A program made the translations under genes and the position numbers. The notes beneath the pieces were generated by a model that worked only from the letters and a program-made list of their open reading frames with translations, had not been told where the DNA came from and ran no database searches. Positions 10,843 to 36,746 of a stretch of 45,685 nt of DNA are shown piece after piece; position 1 is the first letter of the stretch, and each line of letters opens with the position of its first letter. Source of the stretch: a virus; the IMG/VR virus record IMGVR_UViG_3300036861_000169, positions 1 to 45,685 of that record. One strand, 5' to 3'.

Positions 10843-11751
10843 CTATCGCTCGCTCGGTGCGGCTCGCGGCGACCCTATATGCTCCGACAGAGCCGCAGGC
10901 GTCACCGACTGTCGATGGCCGATCACGCCGCACTTTATCGCCCCGGCGGCGTTCCCGACGCGGCAAAGCGTAGGCATATCGGCTCCAGCAGCGGCAAAAA
11001 GCGCAGCCACGCAGAAGAAGGCATCTCCGGCGCCCATCGTGTCGACCACCTTCTCGGCGTGTGACGGCTCGCGGTGGAACGCCCCGTCGTAGCCGATGCA
11101 GCCGGCATTGCCGAGCGTGACGATGATCTTCTTAAAGCCGAGGCGCTCGATCACGCTCTCGATGGGCGAATCCCGGTCGTGGGCGGCGAGCCGCGCTTCA
11201 AGCTCGTCCAGCACCACGAGGTCCGCCGTGCGGTACTTCGTGATCAGATTGAAGCCATGATTCGCCGAGTTGGTCTGCGCGTTGACAGCTAGGAAGCGCG
11301 CGCCCTCGATCATCTCCTCGATCATCGGCGGCGTGATCGCGCCGTGCCCGAAGTCGGTGACGATGACGAGGTCGTACTGCGAATAGGGCGGCGGGTCGAG
11401 CTTGGCGCTCGTGCGCTGCTCCTCGTGGACCTCGAAGAGCTTTCGCACGCGCTCCAGTTCCACGAACCGGCGCTTGATGGTGAACGAGGTGGCCGTGGCG
11501 ACGTCGATCGACTTGCAGAATCCTTTGACGTGCGCGCCCGCCGCCCACACGCCGCCCGCGAATATCTCCTTGTGCGTGAAGCGCGTGGCGATGATGTTCT
11601 CTTTCGGCGACTTGCCGAGCGGCCTGACGTAGTGGTACTCGTCGACTATCCCGTCACCGGCTACAAGTACTCGGAACTGCGAGATAGCCGCCAGATATGA
11701 GGCGAGTGGAGGAGTAGACGTCGTCGTCGGTGAAGACGACTCGGCCGCCAT
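10843..11751 (-). CDS. PfkB-family sugar kinase, HldE1-like
   Basis: A 302-aa protein if ATG 11751 is used, which overlaps the nucleotidyltransferase gene by 98 bp; homology begins at QFRVLVAGDGIVDEYHY (about residue 25), so the exact start is unsure. N-terminal sugar-binding segment FAGGVWAAGAHV and C-terminal anion-hole motif DTMGAGDAFF (residues 237-246, D243 catalytic) identify a ribokinase/PfkB fold. The opening VLVAGDGIVDEYHYV...SPKENI resembles the kinase half of HldE, which phosphorylates heptose-7-phosphate at O1. Last gene of the operon. In bacteria the kinase and nucleotidyltransferase are often one fused protein; here they are separate and in reversed order. Confidence 0.82.
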   Translation of the reverse strand: MAAESSSPTTTSTPPLASYLAAISQFRVLVAGDGIVDEYHYVRPLGKSPKENIIATRFTHKEIFAGGVWAAGAHVKGFCKSIDVATATSFTIKRRFVELERVRKLFEVHEEQRTSAKLDPPPYSQYDLVIVTDFGHGAITPPMIEEMIEGARFLAVNAQTNSANHGFNLITKYRTADLVVLDELEARLAAHDRDSPIESVIERLGFKKIIVTLGNAGCIGYDGAFHREPSHAEKVVDTMGAGDAFFCVAALFAAAGADMPTLCRVGNAAGAIKCGVIGHRQSVTPAALSEHIGSPRAAPSER

Positions 11752-12064
11752 AATGCTCGACGAGACACTGTTCAGGCAGGTTGTTCTCATATTCTTTGCC
11801 CTTGACGTAGATGTCCGGCTTGATCTTTTTGATGGCTTCGACGGCGCTGCGGGCGGCGCGTACCTCGTCCACAATGGCGAGGGCGCGCAGCACCGCCATG
11901 CGCTGATGCAGGTTGAAGATCGGGCGCCCAGGACCCTTGTTGACGTTCTCGTCTCGCGTCACAGAGACGATCAGCACATTCCCATGCGTGCGCGCCGTCT
12001 GGAGGTGGAGCAGGTGCCCATAGTGGAATGGATCCCAGCAGCCGTGAGCGAGTACGACGATCAC
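11654..12064 (-). CDS. Sugar-phosphate nucleotidyltransferase, HldE2-like
   Basis: A 136-aa cytidylyltransferase-fold protein. The start GTG 12064 overlaps the upstream stop (GTGA). The nucleotide-binding motif HGCWDPFHYGH (residues 7-17) is the GCFDxxHxGH signature, followed by VSVTRDENVNKGPGRPIF and IKPDIYVKGKEY, both typical of the HldE C-terminal domain that makes ADP- (or CDP-/GDP-) heptose from heptose-1-phosphate. It is a single-domain version of normal length. The nucleotide used cannot be told from sequence by eye. Confidence 0.86.
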   Translation of the reverse strand: MIVVLAHGCWDPFHYGHLLHLQTARTHGNVLIVSVTRDENVNKGPGRPIFNLHQRMAVLRALAIVDEVRAARSAVEAIKKIKPDIYVKGKEYENNLPEQCLVEHYGGRVVFTDDDVYSSTRLISGGYLAVPSTCSR

Positions 12065-12330
12065 AAAGCCGTTTTGAGATACCCGAGTGCCTTCAGCGCG
12101 CGCCAGCACGCCCCGTAGAGGAGCGAGTAGCCCTGCGATGCGCCGTCAACGTAGATGTGGGCGAGTTCGGCATCGCCGTCCTCCCTGCGTCCGAGCACCG
12201 CCGCACCGTGCAGCACGCCATCATCGCCCACGCCGATCGCGCAGATGGCCTCGACGGGCGCTTTGTAGTGCCGCTCGTGCTTCTCGAGGAATACCTCAGC
12301 GGCCTTCACGCTCAGCGCGACAATTCGCAT
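12061..12330 (-). CDS. XF1762-type N-acetyltransferase-like small protein
   Basis: An 89-aa protein starting at ATG 12330 inside the end of the upstream dehydratase gene. The stretch AIGVGDDGVLHGAAVLGRRE, then LAHIYVDGASQGYSLLYGAC and WRALKALGY matches phage XF1762-family N-acetyltransferases. Those are usually about 150 aa; this one ends right after ALGYLK and so lacks the C-terminal strands. It may still acetylate an amino sugar or be degenerating. It sits in the middle of an operon without polarity problems, so I think it is translated. Confidence 0.65.
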   Translation of the reverse strand: MRIVALSVKAAEVFLEKHERHYKAPVEAICAIGVGDDGVLHGAAVLGRREDGDAELAHIYVDGASQGYSLLYGACWRALKALGYLKTAL

Positions 12331-13175
12331 AGCCCATCCTTCAGCGTGATCGTGTCCTGCCAGACGAGCGCGCGCACCTTCTCGCTGTCCAGCAGGTAAG
12401 CCTCATCCTTGCCGAGCCGGTCTGGCACGACTTCGTAGCGCGCGCCGATCATCTCCACGAGCCGAGCGATTGAGCACGCATTGCGCGTCGAGATGTGGTA
12501 CGTCTCGCCTGGCGTTCCGCGCTTGGCGAGCAGGTACGTGGCCTCGCAGGCGTCGCGCACGTGAATGAAAGAGCGGATGGAACTCCCGCCGCCATGCAGA
12601 GGGAGAACTTCCCCACGTCGTTTGTAGGCGAACGCCTTCGGGATAATCCGGTGTTCTGGCTGACCGTGGCCGTAGATGTTGGCGGTGCGGGTGATGATCG
12701 CGGGGAAGCCGTAGGCGCGGTGGAACGCTTTGAGCATCATGTCGCCAGCCGCGCGAGAGACGGCGTACGGAGTCGTCGGGTTGAACGGATAATCCTCTTT
12801 TACCCACGTCGGCGTCGAGCCATAGACCTCGGGCGTCGAGACGTGGATGAACTTTTTACATTTCACCTGACGTAGATCATCAAAAAGCCGTGTGGTGCCT
12901 ACTGCATTCGTTTGCAACCACAAGGCCGGTGCTTTCCAACTCTCAGCCACTAAGCTGCGTGAGATAAAATTAACTACGTAATCAGCTTTCGTGGCTTCCA
13001 CTTGCGGCGCAGATCCCAACTCGCCGTAAACATAATCGTCAATATCCCACCCATTATGTCCATGCTCGGCGCGGTGCCACATTTGGACAACAATGTCGCC
13101 CTTCTCCTCCACCAGCTTGGCGAAGTTCGACCCGTAGAACGACGACGCGCCAAGTATCAGGAACTTTTCAGCCAT
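12312..13175 (-). CDS. NAD-dependent epimerase/dehydratase with altered active site
   Basis: A 287-aa SDR-family protein starting at ATG 13175. It has the overall plan of dTDP-glucose dehydratase-type extended SDRs: FLILGASSFYGSNF at the N-terminus, KKFIHVSTPEVYGS, then PYAVSRAAGDMMLKAF, ITRTANIYGHGQ and SIRSFIHVRDACEA. Two key positions differ from the norm: the glycine motif GxxGxxG reads GASSFYG, and the YxxxK lysine is arginine (Y137, R141). It may be a non-catalytic or altered-mechanism member, perhaps a reductase or scaffold. It overlaps both neighbours by 19 bp. Confidence 0.8.
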   Translation of the reverse strand: MAEKFLILGASSFYGSNFAKLVEEKGDIVVQMWHRAEHGHNGWDIDDYVYGELGSAPQVEATKADYVVNFISRSLVAESWKAPALWLQTNAVGTTRLFDDLRQVKCKKFIHVSTPEVYGSTPTWVKEDYPFNPTTPYAVSRAAGDMMLKAFHRAYGFPAIITRTANIYGHGQPEHRIIPKAFAYKRRGEVLPLHGGGSSIRSFIHVRDACEATYLLAKRGTPGETYHISTRNACSIARLVEMIGARYEVVPDRLGKDEAYLLDSEKVRALVWQDTITLKDGLCELSR

Positions 13176-13603
13176 GCCATCGCTCGATGACCTAAGTGAA
13201 TCTGCCGGTCCTCGGCCTGCTGCATGTCCTTGCCGAAGCGGATGCACTCGCCAGCCAGTTGCATCGCCTGCGAGTCCTTATTGAATTCCCCGGTGATCGC
13301 CCATGTCTCCATGCCGATGCGCTCTGCTTCCATCAGTGCGTTGATGATATTCAGAGAGTTTCCGCTGCCGGAAAGGGCAATCAGCAAGTCGCCGGGCTCA
13401 CCTACGACCGCCAGCCAGCGCGAGAATACGTTCTGATAGCCGAGGTCGTTCGCCGTCGCGGTCAGCGTCGCCGGATCGAGCGTGTACGCCTTCACGCCGC
13501 ACGAGAGCAGATCGTTCGCGATATGCACGGCGTTCGCGTAGCTGCCGCCGTTGCCGATGATGTAGACGCGCTTCGCCCTCTTGATGGCCTCGGCGAGCCT
13601 CAC
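13157..13603 (-). CDS. SIS-domain phosphoheptose isomerase, GmhA-like
   Basis: A 148-aa SIS protein; I start it at GTG 13603, which overlaps the upstream stop as GTGA. Motifs: VYIIGNGGSYANAVHIANDL (residues 13-32), TATANDLGYQNVFSRWL, GDLLIALSGSGNSLNIINAL (71-90) and RQIHLGHRAM near the C-terminus. These follow GmhA, which converts sedoheptulose-7-phosphate to heptose-7-phosphate. It is shorter than E. coli GmhA (about 190 aa) because the N-terminal helix is missing. The usual HFAAEL glutamate reads as aspartate (HIANDL). It is the entry enzyme if the operon makes nucleotide-heptose. Confidence 0.83.
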   Translation of the reverse strand: MRLAEAIKRAKRVYIIGNGGSYANAVHIANDLLSCGVKAYTLDPATLTATANDLGYQNVFSRWLAVVGEPGDLLIALSGSGNSLNIINALMEAERIGMETWAITGEFNKDSQAMQLAGECIRFGKDMQQAEDRQIHLGHRAMAWLKSS

Positions 13604-14529
13604 GCGGCGACCCACCCGTTCTGCTGCATATAACGCAGGTTGTAGCAGCGATCCTCGTCCTTGAGCGAGCCGGTCGAATACGCCTCCGCGATGTTGGCGA
13701 TAGCATCGTCCACCGAGAACCGTGGCCGGAAGCCGGCCAGCAGCAGCTTGGAGGAGTCCACGCAGTACGAGCGCTTGTCGGCCACCGTCGTCACCTTTAC
13801 CGTCGCCGGCACATGCTGTGTGATCTTCTCGGCGAGCGCCGCCACCGACAGGTTCTCGAAGCCGGCGTTGTAGACGCCCGTTACCTCCGGGTGCGCGAGC
13901 AGCCACACGTACAGGTCCGTCATGTCCTCGATGTGCGTATGCGGGCGCATGAGGCCGGCGCCGTGCTCGCCGCAGTGCGCCATGATCTCGCCCTTGGCGA
14001 GCGCCTGCATCGTGAGCATGTTCACGATGACGTCCAGGCGCATCCGCGGCGACATGCCGCAGACCGTCGCCGGCCGCACGATCTGGATGTTCATTTTCGA
14101 GGCGTAGGACAGCAGGATGCGCTCGGCGACCATCTTTGTCTTGTTGTAATCGCTCACCGGCTCAAGCGACGTTTCCTCGCGCACCGGCTCATTATCCTTC
14201 AGGCCGTACACGCTGGCGGACGAGGCGAAGATGAACCGCTTGATGCCGGCGCGCACCGCCATGTCGGCGAGCAGCACCGTCCCGAGCGCGTTCACCTCCC
14301 ACGTCAGCTTCGCATCGAGCTCGCCGCAGGGGTCATTCGCGATGTTGGCCAAATGCACGATCGCGTCGACCACGGGCAGCGACTTCAGCGTCCTGATGTC
14401 GCACTTGATATTCGGCTCACCGCCGAACCAGCCGGTGTCGCAGGTCGTGACCTGGTGCCCCGCCTTGCGCAGCTTCGGTAGGAGAACGCTGCCGATGTAG
14501 CCGCAGGCGCCGGTCAGGAAGATCCTCAT
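13600..14529 (-). CDS. NAD-dependent epimerase/dehydratase
   Basis: A 309-aa extended SDR starting at ATG 14529, overlapping the upstream stop as ATGA. Intact Rossmann motif GACGYIGS (G7, G10, G13), FIFASSASVYG with the catalytic serine, and the catalytic pair Y128/K132 in DYNKTK. The C-terminal half (VRPATVCGMSPRMRLD, THIEDMTDLYVWLL, GVYNAGFENLSVAALAEKI) is the substrate-binding domain seen in nucleotide-sugar epimerases. It would act on a nucleotide-heptose or related sugar. Unlike the second SDR in this operon it keeps every expected catalytic residue. Confidence 0.87.
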   Translation of the reverse strand: MRIFLTGACGYIGSVLLPKLRKAGHQVTTCDTGWFGGEPNIKCDIRTLKSLPVVDAIVHLANIANDPCGELDAKLTWEVNALGTVLLADMAVRAGIKRFIFASSASVYGLKDNEPVREETSLEPVSDYNKTKMVAERILLSYASKMNIQIVRPATVCGMSPRMRLDVIVNMLTMQALAKGEIMAHCGEHGAGLMRPHTHIEDMTDLYVWLLAHPEVTGVYNAGFENLSVAALAEKITQHVPATVKVTTVADKRSYCVDSSKLLLAGFRPRFSVDDAIANIAEAYSTGSLKDEDRCYNLRYMQQNGWVAA

Positions 14530-15059
14530 TTGTTGTACTCGTTCATGTACTCCACCATGATCACCGAGCCTTCGCAGGCGAGCGCCCGTTCGTACTGCTC
14601 GTAAACGTACTTGGCGTTGAAGAGCTCGACCACGCGCACCGTCTTCAGCATGTAGCGCAGCGCCGGCGTGTGGTTCTGGGTGTGCTGGTGCCCAGGATCC
14701 AACGGCTTATTCGAGCCGACCGCCGTGCGGATGATCACCTTGGGCTTGAAACCGCCCATCAGCGGGATCTTGTCAAGGTGATTAATAAGCTGGTCCGCGG
14801 CGATGATCAGGAAGTCCATCCGCGGGAAAATGCTGACCGGGATGTAGCCCTCAAGCGCGAGGCCGGTGCAAAAGCCGACTTGGAAGTTCTCGGCGACCGG
14901 CATCTCGATCCGGCGCTCCATCGGCACGTCCTTGAGCGTGGCGTGCAGGCGCTGGCCGTCGTAGCGCACCGCCTGGCCGACGAACAGCGTCTTCGGGTGC
15001 TTGGCGAGCATGCCCATCGCGCGGGTGACCTCTCCGGCGTAGGTCAGAACTGGACCCAC
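14526..15059 (-). CDS. TPP-dependent E1 beta / transketolase C-terminal-like subunit
   Basis: A 177-aa protein. The likely start is GTG 15059, overlapping the alpha subunit by 16 bp; family similarity begins at VLTYAGEVTRAMGML. It resembles the pyrimidine-binding half of E1 beta subunits: TLFVGQAVRYDG, RRIEMPVAENFQVGFCTGLA with the conserved glutamate, and YIPVSIFPRMDFLIIAADQLINHLDK. The E1 beta C-terminal (transketolase C) domain is missing, so it is about half normal length. With the alpha subunit it should form a minimal thiamine-diphosphate enzyme that transfers a two- or three-carbon unit, perhaps to a sugar. Confidence 0.78.
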   Translation of the reverse strand: MGPVLTYAGEVTRAMGMLAKHPKTLFVGQAVRYDGQRLHATLKDVPMERRIEMPVAENFQVGFCTGLALEGYIPVSIFPRMDFLIIAADQLINHLDKIPLMGGFKPKVIIRTAVGSNKPLDPGHQHTQNHTPALRYMLKTVRVVELFNAKYVYEQYERALACEGSVIMVEYMNEYNK

Positions 15060-15649
15060 TTTTCCACGCCGACGTGGGGGTACTGGCGCTGGTAGGAGTA
15101 GCGGCGCGCCAGGCCCAGCCACGCCGCCGCGGTGCCCCAGCATTGGTCGGTGGGGCTGTTGCAGGATAGACCGTTGTCCTCGACCACGAACCGGATCTGC
15201 AAGTCCTGCCGCGCCGCGTACGTCGTGACCTCATGGAAAGCGCCGGTGGTCGACGCCATGTCGCCCACGAAGCACCAGACCCGGCGGGACGCCCCGAGGC
15301 GCTTGAGGCCGGCGGCGACCCCGACCGCGATCGGCAGCGTCCCGCCGACGATGGCGGAAGTGAAGAACCGGTGCTCCGGGCATGTGATGTTCATCGACCG
15401 CCCGGCCAGGATCTCGGCCATCAGCCAGTCTGGGTTGATGCCGTGCAGCAGGGCGTGGTAGTGGTTCCGGTAGGTCGAGAATACCCAGTCCTCCGGGTCG
15501 ACATCGCGGAAAATCTCGATGAGTTGCTGCTCGTTCCCGCCGGACAGGTGGACCGGCCCGCGGATCCGGGCGGCGGCAAACTCCTCTGCGACTCGTGCCT
15601 CGAAGGCGACGAGCTCGGCGGCGGTTATTGTTTTTCGCGCGGCGGTCAG
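15044..15649 (-). CDS. TPP-dependent dehydrogenase E1 alpha-like subunit, no ATG start
   Basis: About 201 aa if CTG 15649 is the start. Conserved E1 alpha sequence runs from AAELVAFEARVAEEFAA through STYRNHYHALLHGI and FFTSAIVGGTLPIAVGVAAG to the thiamine-diphosphate motif GDMASTTGAFHE...EDNGLS. The first ATG (15421) would remove the N-terminal third. Upstream of ITAAEL the frame contains no ATG, GTG or TTG before a stop at about 15665. CTG is the only near-cognate start. It is the first gene of the operon. A lost start codon, non-AUG initiation or a local base error could explain this. Confidence 0.75.
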   Translation of the reverse strand: MTAARKTITAAELVAFEARVAEEFAAARIRGPVHLSGGNEQQLIEIFRDVDPEDWVFSTYRNHYHALLHGINPDWLMAEILAGRSMNITCPEHRFFTSAIVGGTLPIAVGVAAGLKRLGASRRVWCFVGDMASTTGAFHEVTTYAARQDLQIRFVVEDNGLSCNSPTDQCWGTAAAWLGLARRYSYQRQYPHVGVEKWVQF

Positions 15650-16259: not shown

Positions 16260-16520
16260 AATCGCCTCGGGCGGACATCCGAGTGTTTGCTTAGGCGTTG
16301 CATCCTAGAGGGTCAGGCGGGCGAAGTTCTGGCGGACACGTCGGAAGCCGGAAACGGTTCCCGTAAGGAACGCCAGCTCCGTGCGATCCGGGGCAGCTTT
16401 TCTCCCATTCCGCTTCGTGCTGATTCCTGCCCCGCTGTAGCCCCCGCTGGCGGGTTCCCCTAGCCCTTTACTGCACCGCAGCGCACTATGAGGGCCGAGG
16501 GCTCCGGCAGGGTCAGGGTG
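16260..16520. other. Non-coding region next to attP with inverted repeats
   Basis: No convincing gene. It contains GGGGCAG (16390-16396) and CTGCCCC (16427-16433), a 7-bp perfect inverted repeat with a 30-nt loop, and a short GTTCC/GGAAC hairpin shortly before it (about 16358-16372). The position beside the integrase and tRNA-Leu segment makes integrase arm-binding or excision-factor sites likely. An untranslated small RNA is another possibility. Confidence 0.45.
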
Positions 16521-16572
16521 ACTTAAAATCCCTCGGCGTAATGCCGTGGCGGTTCAAATCCGCCCCCGGGCA
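16521..16572 (+). other. attP core: 3' half of tRNA-Leu(UAA)
   Basis: The segment is an exact-looking tRNA-Leu 3' half: anticodon loop CTTAAAA (16522-16528, anticodon TAA), long variable arm CGGC/GCCG (16534-16547), T arm GGCGG-TTCAAAT-CCGCC (16548-16564) and acceptor CCCGGGC plus A (16565-16572). The 5' half, D arm and partner acceptor strand are absent, and the anticodon 5' stem pairs imperfectly. Phages that integrate in tRNA genes carry exactly this part, restoring the host tRNA. It ends 20 bp from the integrase stop. Confidence 0.85.
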
Positions 16573-16591: not shown

Positions 16592-17560
16592 TTACGCCGC
16601 TTTCTTCTTCTTTTGTCGTCCCCGCGCCATCCCCGCAAAAGTCTGCCGGATCGCGCTCTTCAGGTGCCCGGGGAGTAGGTGGGCGTAGTGCGTGGCGGTG
16701 ATCTGCATGGTGGTATGGCCCAGCAAGTCCTGTGCGGCCTTCAGGGAGCGCGTTTTCTGGACGACCCACGAGCCGAATGTCCGTCGGAGATCCCGGAACT
16801 GCAGCCAAGGCATGCCCGCCTTGTTCCTGGCCTCCCTGTAGCGTTTCTCGACCTCGGTGGCGGTCAACCCATAGGGGAAGTCCTTCGGCTTCAGGAAGGG
16901 CGCCAAGGGCACGCTGCGGGGCTTTCCTGTCTTGGTTTTCGTCACGATGATCGAGCCGTCGCGGAAGTGGTGGGGCTCGACCCGGCGCATCTCGCCCTGC
17001 CTCAGTCCCGTGCCGATCGCCCAGAGGACCGCCTTCCGCGTGCGCCCCTTGGCGACCCGGAGGAGCCTTTCGGCCTGTTCCGTGGTGGCCTGGACGTAGC
17101 GGGGTTCTTCGCCTGGGAGGAGGGTGATGCGGGCTGCCAAGTCACGATCAGTCCATTCCCACTTCCGATGCGCGAGACGAGCCACACGTCGAAGAATTGC
17201 AAGTCTCCGGTTGATGGTGGCTGGGCGTAGGCCCACTGTGGCACCAGCGGCCTTGACCTGTTCTGCCGCGTCAGGAATCTCTTCCAGCGTTTTTCCAACA
17301 ATGTGAGGGTAGAGCGCGCGGACCTTATCCTGGAGATTCGAGAACGATTGGAGGGCTTTTGCTTCACCGCCTAGCCAGCGGTCAATCGCTTCTTCAAGCG
17401 TGTGGGTCGGCGCTCGTCCAACGCGATGATCTTCGATCCTTTGGCGAGTGCGGCGCTCAAATTCGGTAGCGTCCCGATAGCGGCGAAAGCTCTTGCTGAT
17501 TTCCGGCTTGACGCTTCGGATTCTGACTTCCCAGCCAAGGCCATGCCTGCGGATCGGCAT
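16592..17560 (-). CDS. int: Tyrosine integrase
   Basis: A 322-aa site-specific recombinase. N-terminal arm-binding region (RRHGLGWEVRIRSVKPEISKSF), core-binding domain about residues 55-145, catalytic domain from 155. Catalytic residues: R187 in GTGLRQGE, K210 in KTKTGK, R259 in FRDLRRTFGSW, H282 in LLGHTT and Y292 in THYAHL. The HxxR histidine is arginine (R256). It lies next to the tRNA-Leu 3' half, as expected. The start ATG 17560 lies 155 bp inside the excisionase-like gene. It ends in a lysine run (RQKKKKAA). Confidence 0.93.
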   Translation of the reverse strand: MPIRRHGLGWEVRIRSVKPEISKSFRRYRDATEFERRTRQRIEDHRVGRAPTHTLEEAIDRWLGGEAKALQSFSNLQDKVRALYPHIVGKTLEEIPDAAEQVKAAGATVGLRPATINRRLAILRRVARLAHRKWEWTDRDLAARITLLPGEEPRYVQATTEQAERLLRVAKGRTRKAVLWAIGTGLRQGEMRRVEPHHFRDGSIIVTKTKTGKPRSVPLAPFLKPKDFPYGLTATEVEKRYREARNKAGMPWLQFRDLRRTFGSWVVQKTRSLKAAQDLLGHTTMQITATHYAHLLPGHLKSAIRQTFAGMARGRQKKKKAA

Positions 17561-20061: not shown

Positions 20062-20330
20062 TTCGGCTCTTTCTCTCCCTGGCGTTCGGCTTCGCGCTTC
20101 CAGTAGTCTCGCTCCTCGGTCATTCGTTCGAGCTTCATCATCACGCGCGCCGAGACTTCGCCATCCCAAACGGCGTGATATAGAGGCAGGATCAGCTTGC
20201 CGTAGCGCTCGGACGTGATCAGCACGCTCCCGTAGCGGTCCGCTAGCACCGCGAGCTGCGGGTCGCACCACCGGCGCGCGAGCCACAGGCGGATGTAGTA
20301 GCCCCACTTCGACAGCAGCAGCATTCTCAT
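20058..20330 (-). CDS. Hypothetical early protein, membrane-proximal helix
   Basis: A 90-aa protein from ATG 20330, coupled at both ends by ATGA overlaps. The N-terminus (LLLSKWGYYIRLWLARRW) is an amphipathic or membrane-lining helix, followed by AVLADRYGSVLITSERYGKL and a charged coiled-coil tail (MTEERDYWKREAERQGEKEP). Function unknown. Confidence 0.6.
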   Translation of the reverse strand: MRMLLLSKWGYYIRLWLARRWCDPQLAVLADRYGSVLITSERYGKLILPLYHAVWDGEVSARVMMKLERMTEERDYWKREAERQGEKEPK

Positions 20331-20953
20331 GGGCGCTCCACTACGTATCGAGAACGCTTTTTATCTGTTGCATCCAGCGCGGCTCGCGCAGCCACCTCCG
20401 CATCGGCCGCGCCCTGCGACTGATACCTCTTGCCGTCGTTGTCTATGCAGTCGTAAACGCCCTCGTATTGGACGAGCAGGTTCGTCAGGGCTGTCCGCAG
20501 CGTTTCAAGATCGTGCGCGATGCCGGGGTATCCCTCGCTTTCTCTCGTTGCGGATAACACCGCTGGCTGGTGGTTCTGCATCGCGTCCTCTACCGCGTCC
20601 ATCGCCTGCTCGAAGCCTGCCTGGATCTCGCGGATGTGATCCTTCAGGTCATTCGGCACGCTTTCCCATTGGTCGAGCAGGTTGCCGATGAGCGGGGTAA
20701 CGGCGAGCGCCTGCCCAAGGCGCAGCGCCTCGACTGGCGCTGTATCAGAGGAGGGCACCGCTTCCAGAGCTACGATGGCCGCGAGCATCTTGCGATAGGC
20801 GATCAAGCCTCGGTGCGCTCGCGGGTCGCCCGCAGGGATGCTCGCTTCGCCGAGATTCCACTCCTCGCCCTCGGCCAAGTTGAGCGCGTACTTCAGCGCG
20901 TCGAGCGCCAGCTCTTTCCCCGACTTATCGGGAGAGTGCTTCTCGTCGCTCAT
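20327..20953 (-). CDS. Hypothetical helical early protein
   Basis: A 208-aa protein; start ATG 20953 (an ATG two codons upstream is possible). N-terminus MSDEKHSPDKSGKELALDAL, then long helices (LKDHIREIQAGFEQAMDAVE, IAHDLETLRTALTNLLVQYE). The terminal AADAEVAARAALDATDKKRS also looks helical. It is the longest unassigned protein of the leftward operon. No motif points to an enzyme; a scaffold or inhibitor is possible. Confidence 0.6.
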   Translation of the reverse strand: MSDEKHSPDKSGKELALDALKYALNLAEGEEWNLGEASIPAGDPRAHRGLIAYRKMLAAIVALEAVPSSDTAPVEALRLGQALAVTPLIGNLLDQWESVPNDLKDHIREIQAGFEQAMDAVEDAMQNHQPAVLSATRESEGYPGIAHDLETLRTALTNLLVQYEGVYDCIDNDGKRYQSQGAADAEVAARAALDATDKKRSRYVVERP

Positions 20954-21057
20954 ATGCATTTCTTTCCACAGGTGGCGCAGCGCGGCGATCCGAGTGCGCC
21001 GCTGCAAACGTGGCAACCGCCGGGTGTGTCTTGTTGCAATGGAGTAGGAGTGCTCAT
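20950..21057 (-). CDS. 35-aa zinc-ribbon micropeptide
   Basis: ATG 21057 overlaps the upstream stop (ATGA) and the stop overlaps the next ATG region. The peptide contains CHVCSGALGSPRCATCGKKC, a four-cysteine treble-clef-like knuckle with two further cysteines. It is under the usual length cut-off. Tight coupling and cysteine spacing argue that it is translated. Confidence 0.5.
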   Translation of the reverse strand: MSTPTPLQQDTPGGCHVCSGALGSPRCATCGKKCI

Positions 21058-21269
21058 AGCGGCAGCTTCCCTACCTTCAGGATGTACGTCACCAGCACCG
21101 AAGCCACGGCAATCCAGAAAACGACCCAAACAACGGCGTCGCCGATAGCCGAGTAGTCCGGTGCGCCAGCCGCGGCGATCTCTTTTTTCGCTTTGGTCAG
21201 TTCGCAGCCGAGATCGCAACTCTCGTTCTGGCAAACCGAGTTCATCGCGTGCGGGCAAATTCTGCTCAT
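21054..21269 (-). CDS. Small membrane protein with Cys-rich N-terminus
   Basis: A 71-aa protein from ATG 21269. Residues 5-22 have four cysteines and a histidine (CPHAMNSVCQNESCDLGC), probably a metal or disulfide-stabilised domain; residues 43-66 are one transmembrane segment (AVVWVVFWIAVASVLVTYIL). It overlaps the zinc-ribbon micropeptide by 4 bp. Function unknown. Confidence 0.6.
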   Translation of the reverse strand: MSRICPHAMNSVCQNESCDLGCELTKAKKEIAAAGAPDYSAIGDAVVWVVFWIAVASVLVTYILKVGKLPL

Positions 21270-21317
21270 CCGTCCTCCGAGATACGGCGTGATGTGCTCA
21301 TGCGTTGCGATGGGGTA

Positions 21318-22241
21318 TCAGACGAAGAGCCCTTGCTGCTCATCATAGTGTTCCTCCGGTACGTTCTTTCGCTTCGGGTCGAACTCGCTGAAAGGCATGC
21401 GGGCGTGCGCTCCGTTGACCCAGCGCGCCACGTTCACCAGCTTTTGATGCGTCCAGTCGAAGCGCACCCAGTAGCGTTTCTCCCGCGCGTTGAGCTTGAT
21501 TTCCGGCTGGACGTGCGGCTCGCAGCCAGCCTCTAGGCACTCGTGGATGCGCGCCATGCAGTCGTAGTACGGCTCGTTGCCGATGAGGACGTAAGGGCGT
21601 TTCCGCTTGGCCGCTTCGTCGGCCAGCATCTTCAGGACGCGGCGCACCTGCGGCGCTTCCTTCTTCGTGTCGTACCCGAAGCGCCACGGCCCGCCCCCGG
21701 CATTGATAAGCGGCTTCCAGCGTGCGTAGACCTCGGTTGTGAAGGTGATCGGCTCGAACCCGCTGTTCGCATCGCGCAGCTTCACCCCGGCCTCTTGGTA
21801 GCGCCGGATGATGTAGTTTTGGTAGTCGGCAGGCAGCGCCGACAGGTTGTTGTCGCAGAGCACTGGCCGCACTGGGAAGTCCGGCAGCAACTTGAACTTC
21901 GTGCCCTCCATCGGAGGGACGATGCAAAATGAGCATGGCTTCGGCGCTTCCTCGGTCCCCATGCCGGGGCATCCGCGACTCGCGACCGTGGCATCCGGGT
22001 TGTGATGGCTGAGCGCATCCGGGTACTCCGCCCCGTACTCCGCCAGGTCGAACAGCTCGTGCCGCAGCTTCGCCTTCTGAAGCAAAAAGACACCCGGCCC
22101 GCCGACCATCACGCGCCATCCGAGCATTCGGTAGGACAGCGCCCGCTGTGCCGCATGATCGCAGAGCCACGAGAACGCGATCGACAGGTAGGCCGTGCGC
22201 GTTGTCTCGTCGCCCCATTCGGCGTATCCCTTGCTCCACAA
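21318..22241 (-). CDS. Radical SAM-type phage protein
   Basis: A 307-aa protein starting with TTG 22241, AGGAG 8 nt upstream, directly after the stop of the DUF5131 gene. The cluster motif is in SRGCPGMGTEEAPKPCSFCI: one cysteine, then CxxC after an 11-residue gap, a widened version of CxxxCxxC. VWSKGY-like N-terminus, RMLGWRVMVGGPGVFLLQ and PVLCDNNLSALPADYQNYII match a phage radical SAM group with an RNA/protein methylthiotransferase-like core. Substrate unknown. It is likely a partner of the neighbouring gene. Confidence 0.8.
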   Translation of the reverse strand: MWSKGYAEWGDETTRTAYLSIAFSWLCDHAAQRALSYRMLGWRVMVGGPGVFLLQKAKLRHELFDLAEYGAEYPDALSHHNPDATVASRGCPGMGTEEAPKPCSFCIVPPMEGTKFKLLPDFPVRPVLCDNNLSALPADYQNYIIRRYQEAGVKLRDANSGFEPITFTTEVYARWKPLINAGGGPWRFGYDTKKEAPQVRRVLKMLADEAAKRKRPYVLIGNEPYYDCMARIHECLEAGCEPHVQPEIKLNAREKRYWVRFDWTHQKLVNVARWVNGAHARMPFSEFDPKRKNVPEEHYDEQQGLFV

Positions 22242-23126
22242 CTAACGTTCTCCTGTGGCATCGTGGCTACGGCTTGGGAATTCCTGCACGCGAAGATCCT
22301 CCGGCCACTCGGCAGGATCGGCACCAGCGCGGTCCTTCAGAACGGCGCGGAAGTTACCCTTTCCAGTGTCATCCAGCTTCGCGAGCCAGACAGGGCCGCA
22401 TCCGCTCGTGATGATGTTGGACCCGAGTTGCTTCACGAATGGAGCTGCACCGATCGTTCGACATTGCGCGATGGTGCGGCGGGCGGTATCTGGGTCAAAG
22501 GCCGGCGCTGGCTTCCTCTGGCGGCTGGCCCCGCCAACGATGATCCAGTCAATGCCTGGGAACTTCGTCCAGTCCACCGGCCCTAGTGCTGGCTCGTAGG
22601 ACACGAAGCGCTTGGCGGCCGGCGTCGCCAGCAGTTTCGGCACGTCGCGGTCGGCCTCGCGCTGGTTCACGATGGTGGCCCCGATCCAGACGTTCGGCAG
22701 CGGTGGCGCGTCCACCATCATCGTGCACAGCATTGGCGTAGCGTTCCCGATGCGCTTCGTCAGCAGGAGCCACGTCAGCGCCGGAGTTTTGGCGATCAGC
22801 CTGAACAGGTTCGTGCGCCACACCTGCGGCACTTCGTTGTCGAACACGTCGGCCAGCGACGCGCAGAACACGCGCCACGGCTTCCCGGATGCCGCCGCCT
22901 TCCGGTTCCACGTCACCGGCTTGGTCCAATAGTCCGGGCTGGTCAGCATGCGCGGCACACCAGCGCCCCAGTGCGTGGCACCGCCCCACCGATGGCGGGC
23001 GTCCAGCGCGCGGGCATAGCAGTCGTCGCAGCCGCCTCCGCCGCTCTCGGCGGTGCTAACCTCCGTGCACCCGATCCACGGGTTGAAGGTGCTGTCGGTC
23101 CAGGCGATGCCGGTGGTTTCAGCCAT
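22242..23126 (-). CDS. Phage Gp37/Gp68 family (DUF5131) protein
   Basis: A 294-aa protein from ATG 23126. Signature GIAWTDSTFNPWIGCTEVS then CDDCYARALDARH, the cysteine set of DUF5131, and FCASLADVFD, WLLLTKRIGN, RFVSYEPALGPVDW and DWIIVGGASRQ follow in family order. DUF5131 proteins have a radical SAM-like TIM barrel and occur in phages and in some defence-associated loci. No substrate is known. The next gene starts one base after its stop, so a two-protein system is likely. Confidence 0.9.
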   Translation of the reverse strand: MAETTGIAWTDSTFNPWIGCTEVSTAESGGGGCDDCYARALDARHRWGGATHWGAGVPRMLTSPDYWTKPVTWNRKAAASGKPWRVFCASLADVFDNEVPQVWRTNLFRLIAKTPALTWLLLTKRIGNATPMLCTMMVDAPPLPNVWIGATIVNQREADRDVPKLLATPAAKRFVSYEPALGPVDWTKFPGIDWIIVGGASRQRKPAPAFDPDTARRTIAQCRTIGAAPFVKQLGSNIITSGCGPVWLAKLDDTGKGNFRAVLKDRAGADPAEWPEDLRVQEFPSRSHDATGER

Positions 23127-29956: not shown

Positions 29957-30045
29957 GAACCCCCCACGGAAACCCATGGACCCCCCCGGGCACCCACTGG
30001 ACATCGTACAGCGCGATCGCCGCGCTCAAGGAGTACCTCGCATGA
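29953..30045 (+). CDS. 30-aa coupled micropeptide
   Basis: ATG 29953 lies in the nuclease stop (ATGA) and its own stop TGA 30043-30045 overlaps the next ATG. The sequence is PHGNPWTPPGTHWTSYSAIA then ALKEYLA, a Pro/Trp-rich N-terminus with a helix. Coupling on both sides suggests it is translated. Function unknown. Confidence 0.45.
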   Translation: MRTPHGNPWTPPGTHWTSYSAIAALKEYLA

Positions 30046-30311
30046 TCCCAATTGCAGATACCCGCGAGTTCCAGATTGGATGCTTCACGGTGCAGCAGCG
30101 CCCGAGGCCGGACAATCCGGCAGTCCCGGCCTATGTGGTCTTTATCGGCGAGCGGCTCATCGGCAAGAGTTTCAGCCTGCCCAACATCGACTGCTGCGAG
30201 TCGCTCCTGCGGCAGACGCCATGCGCCAGGCACATCTACGCGTACGCCCATGAGAGCGCGCCCCTTCGCCGGTACACGATGGGCTCATCGATCAAGCGCC
30301 GCGCTGCGTGA
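30042..30311 (+). CDS. Small hypothetical protein
   Basis: An 89-aa protein from ATG 30042, with AAGGAG 8 nt upstream. Strand-rich: EFQIGCFTVQQRPRPDN, AYVVFIGERLIGKSFSLPNI, then CCESLLRQTPCARHIYAYAH with four cysteines. It may bind metal. It overlaps the transposase-like gene by 4 bp (GTGA). No family recognised. Confidence 0.55.
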   Translation: MIPIADTREFQIGCFTVQQRPRPDNPAVPAYVVFIGERLIGKSFSLPNIDCCESLLRQTPCARHIYAYAHESAPLRRYTMGSSIKRRAA

Positions 30312-32089: not shown

Positions 32090-32749
32090 GTGGCGGCGCA
32101 GTTCGACATGATTCAGGCCGGCCCTGAACCGGTGCGCATCCGCGGCCAGGAGATGGCCGAACCGCGCGAGCTCGGGATGATGAGCGGGTACGGTTGGGTC
32201 GAGGATCCGAAGCGCCTGGTGTTCAACGCGGCGCGCTACAAGTTCGTGGCGAAGATGCTGGAGGGCAAAGCGAGCGTGCTCGAGGTCGGGTGCGCGGATG
32301 CGTTCTACTCGCGCATCGTGCGCCAGCACGTGGGGTCCCTGGTGGCGGTGGATTGCAATACCGCCTACATCGGCTCGGCGAAGAAGGTGTCGAGCCCGAA
32401 GTGGAAGGTGTACCTCAATTCGTGGGACATCCTGAAGGAGGGGCCGCTCACCGGGTTCGACGCGGTGTATGCGCTCGATTTATTCGAGCACATCGCGGAC
32501 GAGGACCTGCTGCTCGGGAATCTCGCTCAGTGCGCGCCGGTGTGCATCGTGGGTGCGCCGTCGCTTGAGAGTCAGGCGTACGCCTCGGCGATCTCGAAGG
32601 CTGAGCACGTGAACTGCAAGTCGAAGGAGGGGCTGCGCGCGGCGATGCAGCGGCACTTCCGGCAGGTGTTCATGCTCGGGATGAACGACGAGACGCTGCA
32701 CACGGGGATCATGGCGGCGTACCTCTTCGCGATCGGAGTGAATCCTTGA
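32090..32749 (+). CDS. Class I SAM-dependent methyltransferase
   Basis: A 219-aa protein from GTG 32090 (ATG 32108 is possible). Rossmann motif I in ASVLEVGCADAFYSRIV (EVGC then acidic LVAVDCNTAYI), motif II/III in FDAVYALDLFEHIADEDLLL. The SAM site resembles the ubiE/methyltransferase-11 group, which often methylates sugars, lipids or small metabolites. First gene of the island between TerS and TerL. Substrate unknown. Confidence 0.83.
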   Translation: MAAQFDMIQAGPEPVRIRGQEMAEPRELGMMSGYGWVEDPKRLVFNAARYKFVAKMLEGKASVLEVGCADAFYSRIVRQHVGSLVAVDCNTAYIGSAKKVSSPKWKVYLNSWDILKEGPLTGFDAVYALDLFEHIADEDLLLGNLAQCAPVCIVGAPSLESQAYASAISKAEHVNCKSKEGLRAAMQRHFRQVFMLGMNDETLHTGIMAAYLFAIGVNP

Positions 32750-32970
32750 GCGCGATCTGGCACGACCACGGGTTGCCGTCTTTCCTCGGCACCGCGCCGC
32801 GGTTCTCGTTTTTCGACGTCGCCGAGATCGTGCAGCCGGCGCCGGCGGTTTACGAGGCTCGCCGCGAGCGCATGCAGCGTTGGGAACGCAAGATGGGCGC
32901 GGGCTGGTTCCAGCACAACGCTGAATTGGCGAAGGTGTTCTGGCAAATGAAAAGGCCGTGGTGGCTATGA
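32746..32970 (+). CDS. Small hypothetical protein, TTG start
   Basis: A 74-aa protein from TTG 32746 (TTGA overlap with the methyltransferase stop), ending in an ATGA overlap with the radical SAM gene. It reads SAIWHDHGLPSFLGTAPRFS, then ERMQRWERKMGAGWFQHNAE, with four Trp residues in the second half. It is coupled at both ends and probably assists the adjacent enzymes. Function unknown. Confidence 0.55.
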   Translation: MSAIWHDHGLPSFLGTAPRFSFFDVAEIVQPAPAVYEARRERMQRWERKMGAGWFQHNAELAKVFWQMKRPWWL

Positions 32971-34097
32971 CGATCCGCGACGCTACCGCAAGCCAAGTCG
33001 TGACGCCCATCGGCTGGATCGTGGAGCCCCTGCCGCGGCCGGAGCCATCGGCTGGGGTGGCGGCCTACGACATGGAGCGGTCCATCTGCCTCGCGATGGA
33101 TCAGCGAAAGACCGACAACTACGCGCGCTACATGCGCCGCATGCTCACCGCGGAGCCGGACTACCTCCCGATCAAGCTCGACATCGAGAACGTGTCGCGC
33201 TGCAACTTCGCTTGCTCGATGTGCGCGGTGTCGAAGTGGCTGAAGGGCAAGCGCGCCGAGGACATGAGCCTTGATTGCTTCAAGCGCCTGATCGATGAGC
33301 AGTACGGCTTGGTCGAGATCAAGCTGAACGGCTTGGGCGAGGCCCTCATGCAGGGCGACGAGTACTTCGAGATGATCCGCTACGCCCGCGCGCGCCATAT
33401 CTGGGTGCGGATGACGACCAATGCGTCGCTCCTGCATCTCCGAGAGAACTACCGGAAGCTCATCGACGCCGGGGTGAACGAGATCGACATCTCGATCGAT
33501 GGAGCGGATGCGCCGACCTTCGAGGGCATACGCATCCAGGGGGACTTCGACCGTGTGACGAAGAACTGCCGTCTCCTGAACGATTACTGCGAGTCGCTGG
33601 GCATCGTCAGGACGAAGATGTGGACGCTGGTGCAGCGCGCGAACGCGCGGGATCTGGGCCGGCATGTGCGCCTCGCGAAGGAGCTCGGGTTCCGCAATCT
33701 CGTCTTCAGCCTGCAGCTCCACGGCTGGGGCGACGAGCGGCTGGCCGAGCGCAATCGCGCCGAGCAGGTCGAGTTCGATGGGGCATATCTCTGGAATTTT
33801 GTGGAGCTCGGCCAAGGGTTGGGCGTGCGGGTGTCGTTCTGGGATGTCTCCCAGAAGTTCGAGGCGAAAAATCGCAAGAACCTCTGCCCGTGGCCCTTCG
33901 AGCGCGCGGTGGTGACGAGCGATTCGCGCACGGTGCCCTGCTGCATGATCGGTGATCCAACGGTTTATGAAATCGGTAAGGGGCTGTCGTTTATGCAAGC
34001 TTGGCAAGGCGAGGAGTACAGAGCATTCCGCCAAGCCCACTTAGACGGCGAAATACCAAAGGTCTGTAAAGCCTGCTATCGGAATGCCGATGGTTGA
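32967..34097 (+). CDS. Radical SAM/SPASM-domain enzyme
   Basis: A 376-aa protein from ATG 32967. The cluster motif CNFACSMC gives C79, C83 and C86; TIM-barrel strands follow (EIKLNGLGEALMQGDEYFEM, RMTTNASLLHLRENYRKLID, EIDISIDGADAPTFEGIR). A SPASM domain with auxiliary cluster cysteines closes it: CPWPFERAVVTSDSRTVPCCMIG and KVCKACY. Family members activate a substrate or modify a peptide or sugar. It stands between a methyltransferase and a virion-type protein; that protein and a nucleotide sugar are the possible targets. Confidence 0.9.
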   Translation: MTIRDATASQVVTPIGWIVEPLPRPEPSAGVAAYDMERSICLAMDQRKTDNYARYMRRMLTAEPDYLPIKLDIENVSRCNFACSMCAVSKWLKGKRAEDMSLDCFKRLIDEQYGLVEIKLNGLGEALMQGDEYFEMIRYARARHIWVRMTTNASLLHLRENYRKLIDAGVNEIDISIDGADAPTFEGIRIQGDFDRVTKNCRLLNDYCESLGIVRTKMWTLVQRANARDLGRHVRLAKELGFRNLVFSLQLHGWGDERLAERNRAEQVEFDGAYLWNFVELGQGLGVRVSFWDVSQKFEAKNRKNLCPWPFERAVVTSDSRTVPCCMIGDPTVYEIGKGLSFMQAWQGEEYRAFRQAHLDGEIPKVCKACYRNADG

Positions 34098-34115: not shown

Positions 34116-34787
34116 ATGCCACTTGACGGCTATCAGGTAGTTGCAACCACAACGCCAAATTCAAACGACGCCGGCACAGTCGTGCGTCAGGTCGGTATCG
34201 GCTCGGCGGCTGCGGCGGCCGATGGTGCCGCGAATCCGACGACGATCGACATGAAGGCGTACGGGCTCGTCTGGAACGGCGCGACGTGGGACCGCGCGCT
34301 CGGGGCGGCCGACAACGCCGATGGCGTGGCGGTGGCGACGCAAGGCGCGGCGCGCGTGGTCGCGGAGACCATGCGCTTTAACGGCACTACCTGGGACCGC
34401 GTGCGTAACAACGTCGACGGGACCGCGCTTGCGACGGCGACCAGGACTGCGGGCACGGTCGAAAGCGCGGACATCGTCAACTATAACGCCCGCGGGGTGC
34501 ATGTCGCGCTTCACTACAGCGTCGGGCAGGCGAACCTCGTGCTGAGGATTCAAGGCAAGGATGCACTGTCGGGTGGTTACTACAACCAGGTGACGACGGC
34601 GACCATCTCAGCCACTAACGGTGCCGCCGTGGCTATCTACAAGCTCTATCCCGGCATTTCAGCCGGTGCCGCGACAAATGTCGGCGGCTCGGCGAACGAC
34701 GTGCTGCCAAGAACGTGGCGCGTGCAGGTCGTGCCGTCGGGAAGCCCGACCGCTACGTACGGCGTCGGCTATTCGATGATCCAGTGA
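34116..34787 (+). CDS. Virion-associated protein of unknown fold
   Basis: A 223-aa protein from ATG 34116 with AAGGAG upstream. Repeated WNGATWDRALGAADNADGVA and FNGTTWDRVRNNVDGTALAT blocks, then strand-rich HVALHYSVGQANLVLRIQG. It resembles small structural proteins that occur with phage heads or decorations, rich in Ala, Thr, Gly and Asn and free of cysteine. It could be an acceptor for the neighbouring modification enzymes. No definite family. Confidence 0.55.
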   Translation: MPLDGYQVVATTTPNSNDAGTVVRQVGIGSAAAAADGAANPTTIDMKAYGLVWNGATWDRALGAADNADGVAVATQGAARVVAETMRFNGTTWDRVRNNVDGTALATATRTAGTVESADIVNYNARGVHVALHYSVGQANLVLRIQGKDALSGGYYNQVTTATISATNGAAVAIYKLYPGISAGAATNVGGSANDVLPRTWRVQVVPSGSPTATYGVGYSMIQ

Positions 34788-35944
34788 AGGCGACGGTTCT
34801 CGGCGGGGGCTTTGCCGGCACCACCGTTGCGCATCTGCTCGCGCGCGACGGCTGGGAGGTAACGCTCATCGAGAAGGAACCGCATCTTGGCGGAGGCTGC
34901 CGCACATTCTTCTACGGCGGGCACCCGTTCACCTACGGGCCGCGCGTGTACTACGGCTATTCGGCCAAGGTCTGGAAGTGGATCGACTCGATCATCCCGA
35001 TGCGGCGCTTCCCGTTCGAGCTCCTGACCTACGTGGAGGACGAGCAGAGATTCTTTTCCTACCCGATCCACCAGGACGACATCCCGCACATGAAGAATGC
35101 CGTGCAGATTTGGCTGGAGATCGCATCGGCGGACAATTCGAAGGAACCGCGCGACTTCGAGGAGTACTGGATTCAGCGCGTCGGTCGCACGCTCTACGAC
35201 ATGTTCGTGAACGGCTACTCTAAAAAGATGTGGATGATCAATGACAATCGCATCTTCGACATCTTCAAGTGGTCGGCGAAGGACAAGGCGATCGAGAGTG
35301 GCACGAAGGAAGCATACAAGGGATCCTACATCGGCTATCCGGCGAATCTGCACGGGTACAACCCGTATTTCGATCGGATGACGCAGGGCGTGGAGGTGCT
35401 CACCGAGCACGAGTTCAAGCACGACGAATTCGTCCGCTCCGATGCGATCATCAGCACGATCCCCATCGATGAATTCTGCGGCTACAAATATGGCGAGCTC
35501 CCATACGTGGGGCGCGATTTCACGGTGTTCATTCTCCCGTGCAAACAGGCTTTCCCTGGAGACGTGAGGTTTTGCCACTATGCCGGCCAAGAACCGCACA
35601 CGCGCATCACGGAGTTCAAAAAAATCACCTACTACGATTCCCCCGACTCGCTCTTTGTTCTGGAGACTCCTTCAAAGCGCAACAAGCTTTATCCGTACCT
35701 TACGAAGGCGAACACAGCGCTGACGAAGAAATACCTAGACAGCCTGCCGCCGAATGTCCACTCGATCGGGCGCCTCGGGACATATCGATACTCCACAATT
35801 GAACAAACGATCTGTCAGGCGTTCGAGTGCTACGCGAAGATCACCGGCAAGCCCAATCCGATGGACGGCGAATTCTTCGGCATCGGCGACACCGCCATGA
35901 TGAAAAACCGCGGGGAAGACAGTGGCCTCAAGCGCGCAGCCTGA
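34784..35944 (+). CDS. glf: UDP-galactopyranose mutase-like flavoenzyme
   Basis: A 386-aa protein from GTG 34784, overlapping the previous stop (GTGA). FAD-binding start KATVLGGGFAGTTVAHLLAR (GGGFAG at 7-12) followed by LIEKEPHLGGGCRTF; C-terminal GRLGTYRYSTIEQTICQAFE is the conserved GRLGxYrY segment of UGM. YFDRMTQGVEVLTEHEFK and SDAIISTIPIDEFCGYKYGE agree. UGM converts UDP-galactopyranose to UDP-galactofuranose, a precursor of O-antigens, with FADH2. The length is that of bacterial UGM. A phage UGM would need a furanosyltransferase partner; the next gene is a candidate. Confidence 0.87.
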   Translation: MKATVLGGGFAGTTVAHLLARDGWEVTLIEKEPHLGGGCRTFFYGGHPFTYGPRVYYGYSAKVWKWIDSIIPMRRFPFELLTYVEDEQRFFSYPIHQDDIPHMKNAVQIWLEIASADNSKEPRDFEEYWIQRVGRTLYDMFVNGYSKKMWMINDNRIFDIFKWSAKDKAIESGTKEAYKGSYIGYPANLHGYNPYFDRMTQGVEVLTEHEFKHDEFVRSDAIISTIPIDEFCGYKYGELPYVGRDFTVFILPCKQAFPGDVRFCHYAGQEPHTRITEFKKITYYDSPDSLFVLETPSKRNKLYPYLTKANTALTKKYLDSLPPNVHSIGRLGTYRYSTIEQTICQAFECYAKITGKPNPMDGEFFGIGDTAMMKNRGEDSGLKRAA

Positions 35945-36746
35945 AAAACGAGTCGCGCTCTACGACCTTGCGTCGATGCCGACGACGTTCGACTTCGCGG
36001 TCTACGCCGTCATGGCAAAGACGCTCGGCTACGACGAGATTCGCTTCGTCGTGGGCAACATAACGACATGGAAATACCCGGCCGAGATCGGCTGGCGGCG
36101 CTGGGCGAACATCTGCATTCCGCTGTGCGGCCTCGCAGGGCTGAAGTTCACGGTCGAAGGCCAGCCGGGGCTAGGCGATGTGCTCGGCTACGCCACCGGG
36201 CACGCCGAGGCCCTCTATAAGCGTCTCGGGCGTATCGAGAAGCTGAAAGCGCCGGATGCCTTCACCGGCAGCGGCTACGTGACGATCACCATGCGCGAGT
36301 CGTTCCGCAACAAGTGGCGCGACTCGAACCGGCCGGAATGGGCGAAGGTGAGCGAGTGGCTGATGCGCCGCGGCGAGGAAGTGATCGTGCTCGAGGAGTG
36401 CGAGTTCCAGCCGATGGCGCTGGAAAAGCGCATTTCGGTCTACGCGAACGCGAAGATGAACCTCGCAGTGGGCAATGGCCCGATGGTGCTGTGCTGGCTC
36501 TCGGAAGCCCCTTACCTGACCTTCCAGCTTCCGAAGCGCGAGGGCCGCGAAAAGGATTACGACACGCTCGTCGAGCAGTGGAATCGCATGAAGTTCCCGG
36601 TCGGCTCGCAGCTTTCCTTCCGCAATGAGCGGCAGGAGATCGTCTGGGGGCCGGATGATTTCGAGACGGTGACAGGCCACTACGAAAAAATCATGGAACA
36701 AAAAGAAGCGCAGCAAATGCGCCTGAAAAATGGAACTACGGCTTGA
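35922..36746 (+). CDS. Possible glycosyltransferase-like protein
   Basis: A 274-aa protein from GTG 35922, overlapping the mutase end by 23 bp, with GGGGAA upstream. No signal peptide or membrane segment. The C-terminal half (RGEEVIVLEECEFQPMALEK, KMNLAVGNGPMVLCWLSEAP, YLTFQLPKREG) recalls the donor-binding half of GT-B glycosyltransferases, in particular the conserved ALxxADLxxxxxSGPxHL region of GT9, but the match is loose. The N-terminal part is not recognised. I infer glycosyl transfer from this and from the mutase neighbour. Confidence 0.45.
   Translation: MASSAQPEKRVALYDLASMPTTFDFAVYAVMAKTLGYDEIRFVVGNITTWKYPAEIGWRRWANICIPLCGLAGLKFTVEGQPGLGDVLGYATGHAEALYKRLGRIEKLKAPDAFTGSGYVTITMRESFRNKWRDSNRPEWAKVSEWLMRRGEEVIVLEECEFQPMALEKRISVYANAKMNLAVGNGPMVLCWLSEAPYLTFQLPKREGREKDYDTLVEQWNRMKFPVGSQLSFRNERQEIVWGPDDFETVTGHYEKIMEQKEAQQMRLKNGTTA

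Follow-up and report, generated by a model that had tools for sequence, protein, structure and literature searches.

The window analysed here, a virus record of 45,685 bases (IMGVR_UViG_3300036861_000169), carries on its minus strand, wholly inside the record, a block of eight intact open reading frames (ORFs) at 10843-15649 with the makings of a nucleotide-sugar pathway (Table 1). In the order of transcription they encode the alpha and beta subunits of an E1-type thiamine-dependent enzyme, an epimerase of the short-chain dehydrogenase/reductase (SDR) class, a SIS isomerase, a second SDR, a GNAT-like protein, a nucleotidyltransferase and a PfkB-type kinase. From E1-alpha to the kinase the successive ORFs overlap by 16, 4, 4, 19, 19, 4 and 98 nt, as calculated from the coordinates, in agreement with the order and the overlapping junctions described in an initial annotation made from the sequence alone; its placement of the block between lysis and integration genes likewise holds, with an endolysin on one side and a tRNA-Leu/integrase site on the other. 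Pfam and NCBIfam searches confirm the families of the block proteins, and the block itself is confirmed as a real gene set. Four additional genes on the plus strand, encoding a methyltransferase, a radical SAM protein, a UDP-galactopyranose-mutase (GLF) homologue and a glycosyltransferase, lie directly ahead of TerL. Hence, while the eight ORFs of the proposed eight-gene operon are all present, the set comprises about twelve genes, distributed between 10.8-15.6 kb (-) and 32.1-36.7 kb (+). PHROGs identified a terminase, a portal protein, a major head protein, a head-closure protein and an endolysin in the window, and because the integrase adjoins the tRNA-Leu gene the phage is probably temperate.

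Table 1. Genes of the predicted pathway and of the adjoining integration site in the window
Feature	Coordinates	Strand	Evidence
E1-alpha-like subunit, binding thiamine diphosphate (ThDP)	15044..15649	-	about 195-201 aa; Pfam E1_dh 8e-17; NCBIfam pyruvate dehydrogenase (PDH) E1 alpha 4e-26; 15-sequence alignment
E1-beta-like pyrimidine-binding subunit	14526..15059	-	177 aa; Pfam Transket_pyr 5e-7; second half of phrog_34187
SDR / epimerase	13600..14529	-	YNKTK triad intact, SPRMRLD motif; phmmer 1.2e-25 to PDB 6vo6; family alignment
GmhA-like SIS isomerase, short form	13157..13603	-	148 aa; NCBIfam GmhA 1.7e-23 and 6e-23, below cut-off; PDB 1x94 3.7e-18
Second SDR, RmlB-like	12312..13175	-	dTDP-glucose 4,6-dehydratase model 4.9e-52, below cut-off; six-sequence alignment
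Short XF1762/Mom-type GNAT protein	12061..12330	-	89 aa, C-terminal third of family absent; XF1762_fam 1.3e-12
HldE2-like nucleotidyltransferase, cytidylyltransferase fold	11654..12064	-	TIGR02199 1.4e-28, below cut-off
PfkB/HldE1-like sugar kinase	10843..11751	-	GAGD motif; ATG 11749-11751; TIGR02198 9.6e-21, below cut-off; Pfam PfkB 2e-17; alignment
tRNA-Leu(TAA)	16493..16572	+	ARAGORN; likely attachment-site copy, adjoins integrase
Integrase	16592-17560	-	PHROG 1.7e-36
Class I methyltransferase	32090..32749	+	Pfam Methyltransf_23; 54-59% identity to operon member of G002 and G004
Radical SAM/SPASM protein	32958..34097	+	Pfam Radical_SAM, SPASM; 63-64% identity to G002, G004; also in L148, L149
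GLF homologue	34715..35944	+	Pfam GLF 9e-29; TIGR00031 5e-29, below cut-off; 70-71% identity to G002, G004
GT-B / heptosyltransferase-like glycosyltransferase	35922..36746	+	AlphaFold2 pLDDT 86.5; PDB Foldseek TibC, POMGNT2, then WaaC

The E1 proteins form a small thiamine-dependent enzyme of two short subunits, as had been supposed, in which E1-beta consists of the pyrimidine-binding domain only and has no C-terminal transketolase domain. E1-alpha displays the ThDP motif GDM-x26-N and E1-beta a conserved Glu in the sequence PVAEN, and the pair adjoins nucleotide-sugar genes in the manner of the two-subunit E1-type branched-sugar enzymes (alpha-KADH2), namely AviB1/B2, Pau11/12, Plm8/9 and KbDH. 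These enzymes attach C2 units to keto sugars; in antibiotic pathways such additions, with pyruvate as the donor, have been established or proposed (PMC12247030; PMC4802897). The earlier suggestion that the thiamine enzyme points to a branched sugar is thus chemically reasonable.

The likeness of the SIS protein, nucleotidyltransferase and kinase to GmhA, HldE2 and HldE1, respectively, stands in so far as these are the best models for each, although all scores are well below the curated equivalog level (SIS, 83 and 81 bits against cut-offs of 265 and 209 for two GmhA models; kinase, 74 of 345 bits; nucleotidyltransferase, 100 of 181.5 bits). The epimerase, rightly described at the outset as intact, retains its catalytic triad, with the Tyr-x3-Lys conserved in five homologues. 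It had also been counted as a core enzyme of ADP- or GDP-heptose synthesis, but it attains just 65 of the 274.6 bits of the HldD model TIGR02197, and its best phmmer match by a wide interval (1.2e-25, the next being 1.3e-17) is PDB 6vo6, which we take to be Campylobacter Cj1427, in view also of the structure paper cited in PMC10680097. The latter study describes Cj1427 as the GDP-heptose C4-dehydrogenase, and the phage epimerase is nearer to this enzyme than to HldD. The missing GmhB phosphatase was borne out, no match to TIGR00213 or PF13242 being obtained in the window or in 14 related records with a positive E. coli control. A nucleotide-heptose pathway with an added thiamine enzyme, as first proposed, is therefore partly supported: the GmhA/HldE likenesses and the E1 pair favour it, whereas the scores below cut-off and the closeness of the epimerase to Cj1427 do not. 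Searching viral contigs with only the kinase protein as query returned nothing, a limit of the exact peptide patterns of that scan, since homologues of the kinase do occur close to E1 genes.

The second SDR, correctly noted as altered, has STPEVYG (Asp to Pro) and YAVSR (Lys to Arg), conserved throughout the six homologues aligned, together with an altered Gly motif, and hence does not possess the Asp-Glu dyad and Tyr-x3-Lys of an RmlB 4,6-dehydratase. The protein following it had been labelled acetyltransferase-like; it is better described as a short, strongly conserved XF1762/Mom-type protein (47.7 of 50 bits, model positions 2-92 of 143). Its predicted structure (pLDDT 89.7) is nearest to phage Mu Mom (8bv8, query TM-score 0.75); a PDB profile search with its alignment gave chance matches only, and the Mom match rests on the predicted fold. 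Compared with its XF1762 relatives it stops about 55 residues early, which first suggested a truncation scar; we dismissed this reading, since other phages encode the same short form, 75-81% identical, next to this SDR.

The glycosyltransferase of the plus-strand group has no Pfam match, and a PDB profile search with its alignment likewise yielded chance matches only, so that its assignment, too, depends on predicted fold. The heptosyltransferases TibC and WaaC are among its closest solved folds at 12-14% identity (top Foldseek match E 3e-5 and probability 1.0, yet TM-score about 0.4), and a viral structure library returned GT9, TibC and RfaF proteins. As the TM-scores are moderate, we call it heptosyltransferase-like and go no further; the fold likeness nevertheless points to heptose without relying on the SIS, kinase and nucleotidyltransferase trio. 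At L145:1122-1802 (+) and L148:3326-4072 (+) an FkbM-like methyltransferase (a reading by eye) takes the place of the methyltransferase of the window.

In related phages whose terminase, portal and head protein are 55-77% identical to those of the window, orthologous operons occur in differing arrangements. G004 has the order nucleotidyltransferase-SIS-epimerase-SDR-GNAT-E1-alpha-E1-beta-methyltransferase-radical SAM-GLF-glycosyltransferase, followed directly by TerL; G002 has the portion from the SDR onward; and G017 has kinase-SIS-nucleotidyltransferase-epimerase-E1-alpha-E1-beta with portal and head genes on either side. The order in L148 and L149 is glycosyltransferase-radical SAM-GLF-SIS-nucleotidyltransferase-epimerase-SDR-GNAT-E1-alpha-E1-beta, and the truncated contig L145 follows it from GLF on, adjoining a tail tape measure gene. 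L145 derives from a long-tailed phage, and terminase, portal and capsid genes like those of the window are absent from the stretch of contig examined. We rejected the idea that the block is host DNA joined at an assembly break, because it lies inside a 45.7 kb virus record and because orthologous operons are embedded in phages sharing the terminase, portal and capsid genes of the window. A DUF115/Maf-type-looking protein is encoded between the portal and head genes of G002 (29977-31482; L104:9977-11482) and G017 (20075-21415; L109:75-1415), and its PHROGs match, to a methyltransferase, is confined to the C-terminal part.

In a tree of 38 E1-alpha sequences, those of G002, G004, G017, L148 and L149 are separated from those of the window, L145 and G001 by a long branch (support 100/100). 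The SDR and GNAT genes adjoining both lineages are homologous throughout, except in G017, which has neither. Thus, the slot after SDR-GNAT is filled by two deeply separated E1 lineages, and the simplest reading is that the E1 pair was replaced while the pathway kept needing its step. The thiamine step of the pathway looks required, because both lineages occur in matching operons.

Comparison with orthologues gave proportions of synonymous differences (pS) of 0.61-0.83, near saturation, against nonsynonymous values (pN) of 0.13-0.36, with the tightest constraint on the GNAT-like protein; the block genes are under purifying selection. The block goes beyond chance since its frames are kept in other phages with saturated synonymous and restrained amino-acid change, and also since viral E1-alpha loci are rich in the same families, whereas control loci are not. 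We compared 82 E1-alpha loci (the best 80 of 162 IMG/VR matches, together with those of two cyanophages; mean 15.4 kb), which are not independent samples, with 65 somewhat shorter control viral loci (mean 12.5 kb) taken from phages that carry XF1762 genes and from relatives lacking the cassette. The respective counts were 72 and 2 for SDR, 56 and 0 for RmlC-like, 34 and 1 for DegT aminotransferase, 29 and 1 for nucleotidyltransferase, 23 and 0 for kinase, 16 and 1 for radical SAM, and 8 and 0 for SIS genes. In 23 cellular loci, mostly metagenome-assembled genomes (MAGs), E1-alpha stands alongside SDR, SIS or radical SAM genes. The E1 pair adjoins radical SAM genes in MAGs of Desulfobacterales, Nanoarchaeota and others (L135, L137, L139, L140, L141), being enclosed by such genes in L135 and L141, a hint that this thiamine enzyme also serves in another, distinct pathway. 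An 'Acinetobacter phage' record with acoA is, judging from its annotation, likely host DNA in a phage assembly.

Based on these observations we propose, with a probability of about 0.5, that the roughly twelve genes constitute a mobile phage glycosylation pathway for synthesis of a modified nucleoside diphosphate (NDP)-heptose and its transfer by the glycosyltransferase. The SIS protein would convert sedoheptulose-7-phosphate to aldoheptose-7-phosphate, the kinase would phosphorylate C1, a host phosphatase (GmhB or similar) would remove the C7 phosphate and the nucleotidyltransferase would yield the NDP-heptose. The Cj1427-like SDR may then oxidize C4 to a ketone, onto which E1-alpha/beta could transfer two carbons taken from pyruvate or a ketose to give a branched sugar. 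The second SDR, methyltransferase, radical SAM protein and GLF-type mutase, the last acting between pyranose and furanose, would tailor the sugar, and the GT-B enzyme would pass it to an acceptor on the virion or host envelope. Pyranose/furanose mutases are reported in heptose pathways (PMC10680097). We infer the order of steps from known chemistry, including carboligation as in the antibiotic pathways. The case for a heptose is fairly strong, because GmhA, HldE1 and HldE2 are the best models, the epimerase is nearest to Cj1427 and the glycosyltransferase fold resembles TibC and WaaC. Oxidation at C4 by the Cj1427-like SDR has a moderate claim, and C2 branching of the 4-keto sugar, our preferred role for the E1 pair, is a weaker prediction. 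The position of the glycosyltransferase gene, immediately before that of the terminase on the late strand, is suggestive of virion modification, whereas the other half of the set adjoins the integrase, a usual site of lysogenic conversion genes. A fuller version, tentative at best, would be a transferable phage pathway for an undescribed C4-branched nine-carbon heptose derivative, made by the C4-dehydrogenase and a pared-down thiamine enzyme of two subunits, perhaps aided by the Mom-type protein, and placed on virion proteins by a phage heptosyltransferase, with two distant thiamine-enzyme lineages swapped into one slot.

Several observations weigh against the proposed pathway. None of the four heptose-like enzymes reaches its curated NCBIfam cut-off, and the TM-scores of the glycosyltransferase fold range only from 0.38 to 0.46. 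The second SDR is without the usual catalytic Asp and Lys, and the C-terminal domain of an ordinary E1-beta is missing from the E1 proteins. The branched-sugar enzymes to which the phage pair is likened belong to antibiotic clusters and have deoxyhexoses, not heptoses, as acceptors. E1-alpha, alone among the eight ORFs, has no evident start: ATG, GTG and TTG are absent from its homologous N-terminus (window 15600-15649), leaving a CTG at 15649 or an ATA that occupies the position of ATG or GTG in many relatives; a sequencing error and an unusual start codon are both possible. Finally, the kinase is absent from G002, G004, L145, L148 and L149, and SIS and nucleotidyltransferase are absent from G002, so the core of the pathway is not fixed.

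Three alternative explanations were considered. The E1 pair might be a small transketolase making sedoheptulose-7-phosphate for the GmhA/HldE-like enzymes, the product being an ordinary heptose for host lipopolysaccharide (LPS) or capsule. The order kinase-SIS-E1-alpha-E1-beta in several phage loci, the SIS gene directly preceding the pair in Chloroflexi MAGs, the annotation of cyanophage homologues as 'transketolase central region' and a weak transketolase match all fit such a role, yet the PDH E1 family is matched far better (4e-26 against 1.7e-5). Moreover, SIS, kinase and nucleotidyltransferase are all absent from 49 of the 82 viral E1 loci, where extra sedoheptulose-7-phosphate would have no evident use; this, with the common SDR and RmlC-like genes, fits nucleotide-sugar tailoring better, and we regard the transketolase role as unlikely. 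We judge about as improbable that the trio acts on a non-heptose sugar phosphate, giving a non-heptose branched or deoxy sugar. The low scores of the heptose models, the kinase N-terminal half without Pfam or NCBIfam match and the closeness of the nucleotidyltransferase to other cytidylyltransferases would suit it, but the best models of all three are heptose enzymes, and the epimerase and glycosyltransferase are nearest to a GDP-heptose enzyme and heptosyltransferases. That the Mom-type protein and radical SAM enzyme instead place a sugar-derived group on a DNA base is very improbable: the Mom-like fold and strongest conservation of the GNAT-like protein speak for it, and against it are its missing C-terminal third, the heptosyltransferase-like enzyme and the failure to find a gene for a base hydroxymethylase or for comparable nucleotide modification in the subset of window ORFs tested.

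Elsewhere in the window, a DUF5131/phrog_2045 protein (Pfam 1.8e-58) is encoded among minus-strand genes at 22242-23126 (-), and a right-handed beta-helix protein (NosD/Beta_helix) at 483-2237 (+) is possibly a tail spike or receptor-binding protein. A pattern search with the tRNA-Leu end for related integration sites gave no match.

Sullivan et al. (2010, PMC3037559) proposed a functional linkage for seven LPS genes co-occurring in P-SSM2, S-SM2 and S-SSM7, and left open whether LPS-type genes of phages are functional or filler DNA. The recurrence of a coherent pathway as one block in several phages, including the long-tailed L145, under purifying selection bears on this question, as does the swapping of the thiamine enzyme for a distant relative while its neighbours stay. 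The proposed pathway also concretely predicts a new activated sugar, the use of short E1 pairs to branch glycans beyond antibiotic biosynthesis, and phage virion or envelope glycosylation. In the openly licensed literature we found no dedicated study of phage heptose/thiamine co-occurrence, which is weak evidence of absence, and no description of the core with the altered SDR, short Mom-type protein, mutase and glycosyltransferase in this phage group with exchange of E1 lineages. The complete set, the thiamine-dependent step within it and its occurrence across unrelated phages have so far received little description. GDP-heptose modification in Campylobacter jejuni shares the 1,2-isomerase, 1-kinase, nucleotidyltransferase, C4-dehydrogenase and pyranose/furanose mutase steps; that system includes a 7-phosphatase of its own together with C3/C5 epimerases and C4 reductases, its enzymes are distant from those of the phage, and the portions of the source consulted mention no thiamine enzyme step (PMC10680097). 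The cyanophages S-SM2 (Synechococcus) and P-TIM68 (Prochlorococcus) come closer, having E1-alpha/beta, a PfkB-type kinase, an HldE2-like nucleotidyltransferase, a phosphoheptose isomerase and epimerases in one cluster, as in the window. They differ in being T4-like phages with large clusters in which no SDR2-GNAT pair or GLF is annotated, and in having E1-alpha and E1-beta fused into one protein, with an E1 identity of about 45-48%. The initial annotation, which knew of no phage described with this exact set, was accordingly too strong: these cyanophages carry most of the core beside the fused E1 gene, and the core of the pathway is already known in phages.

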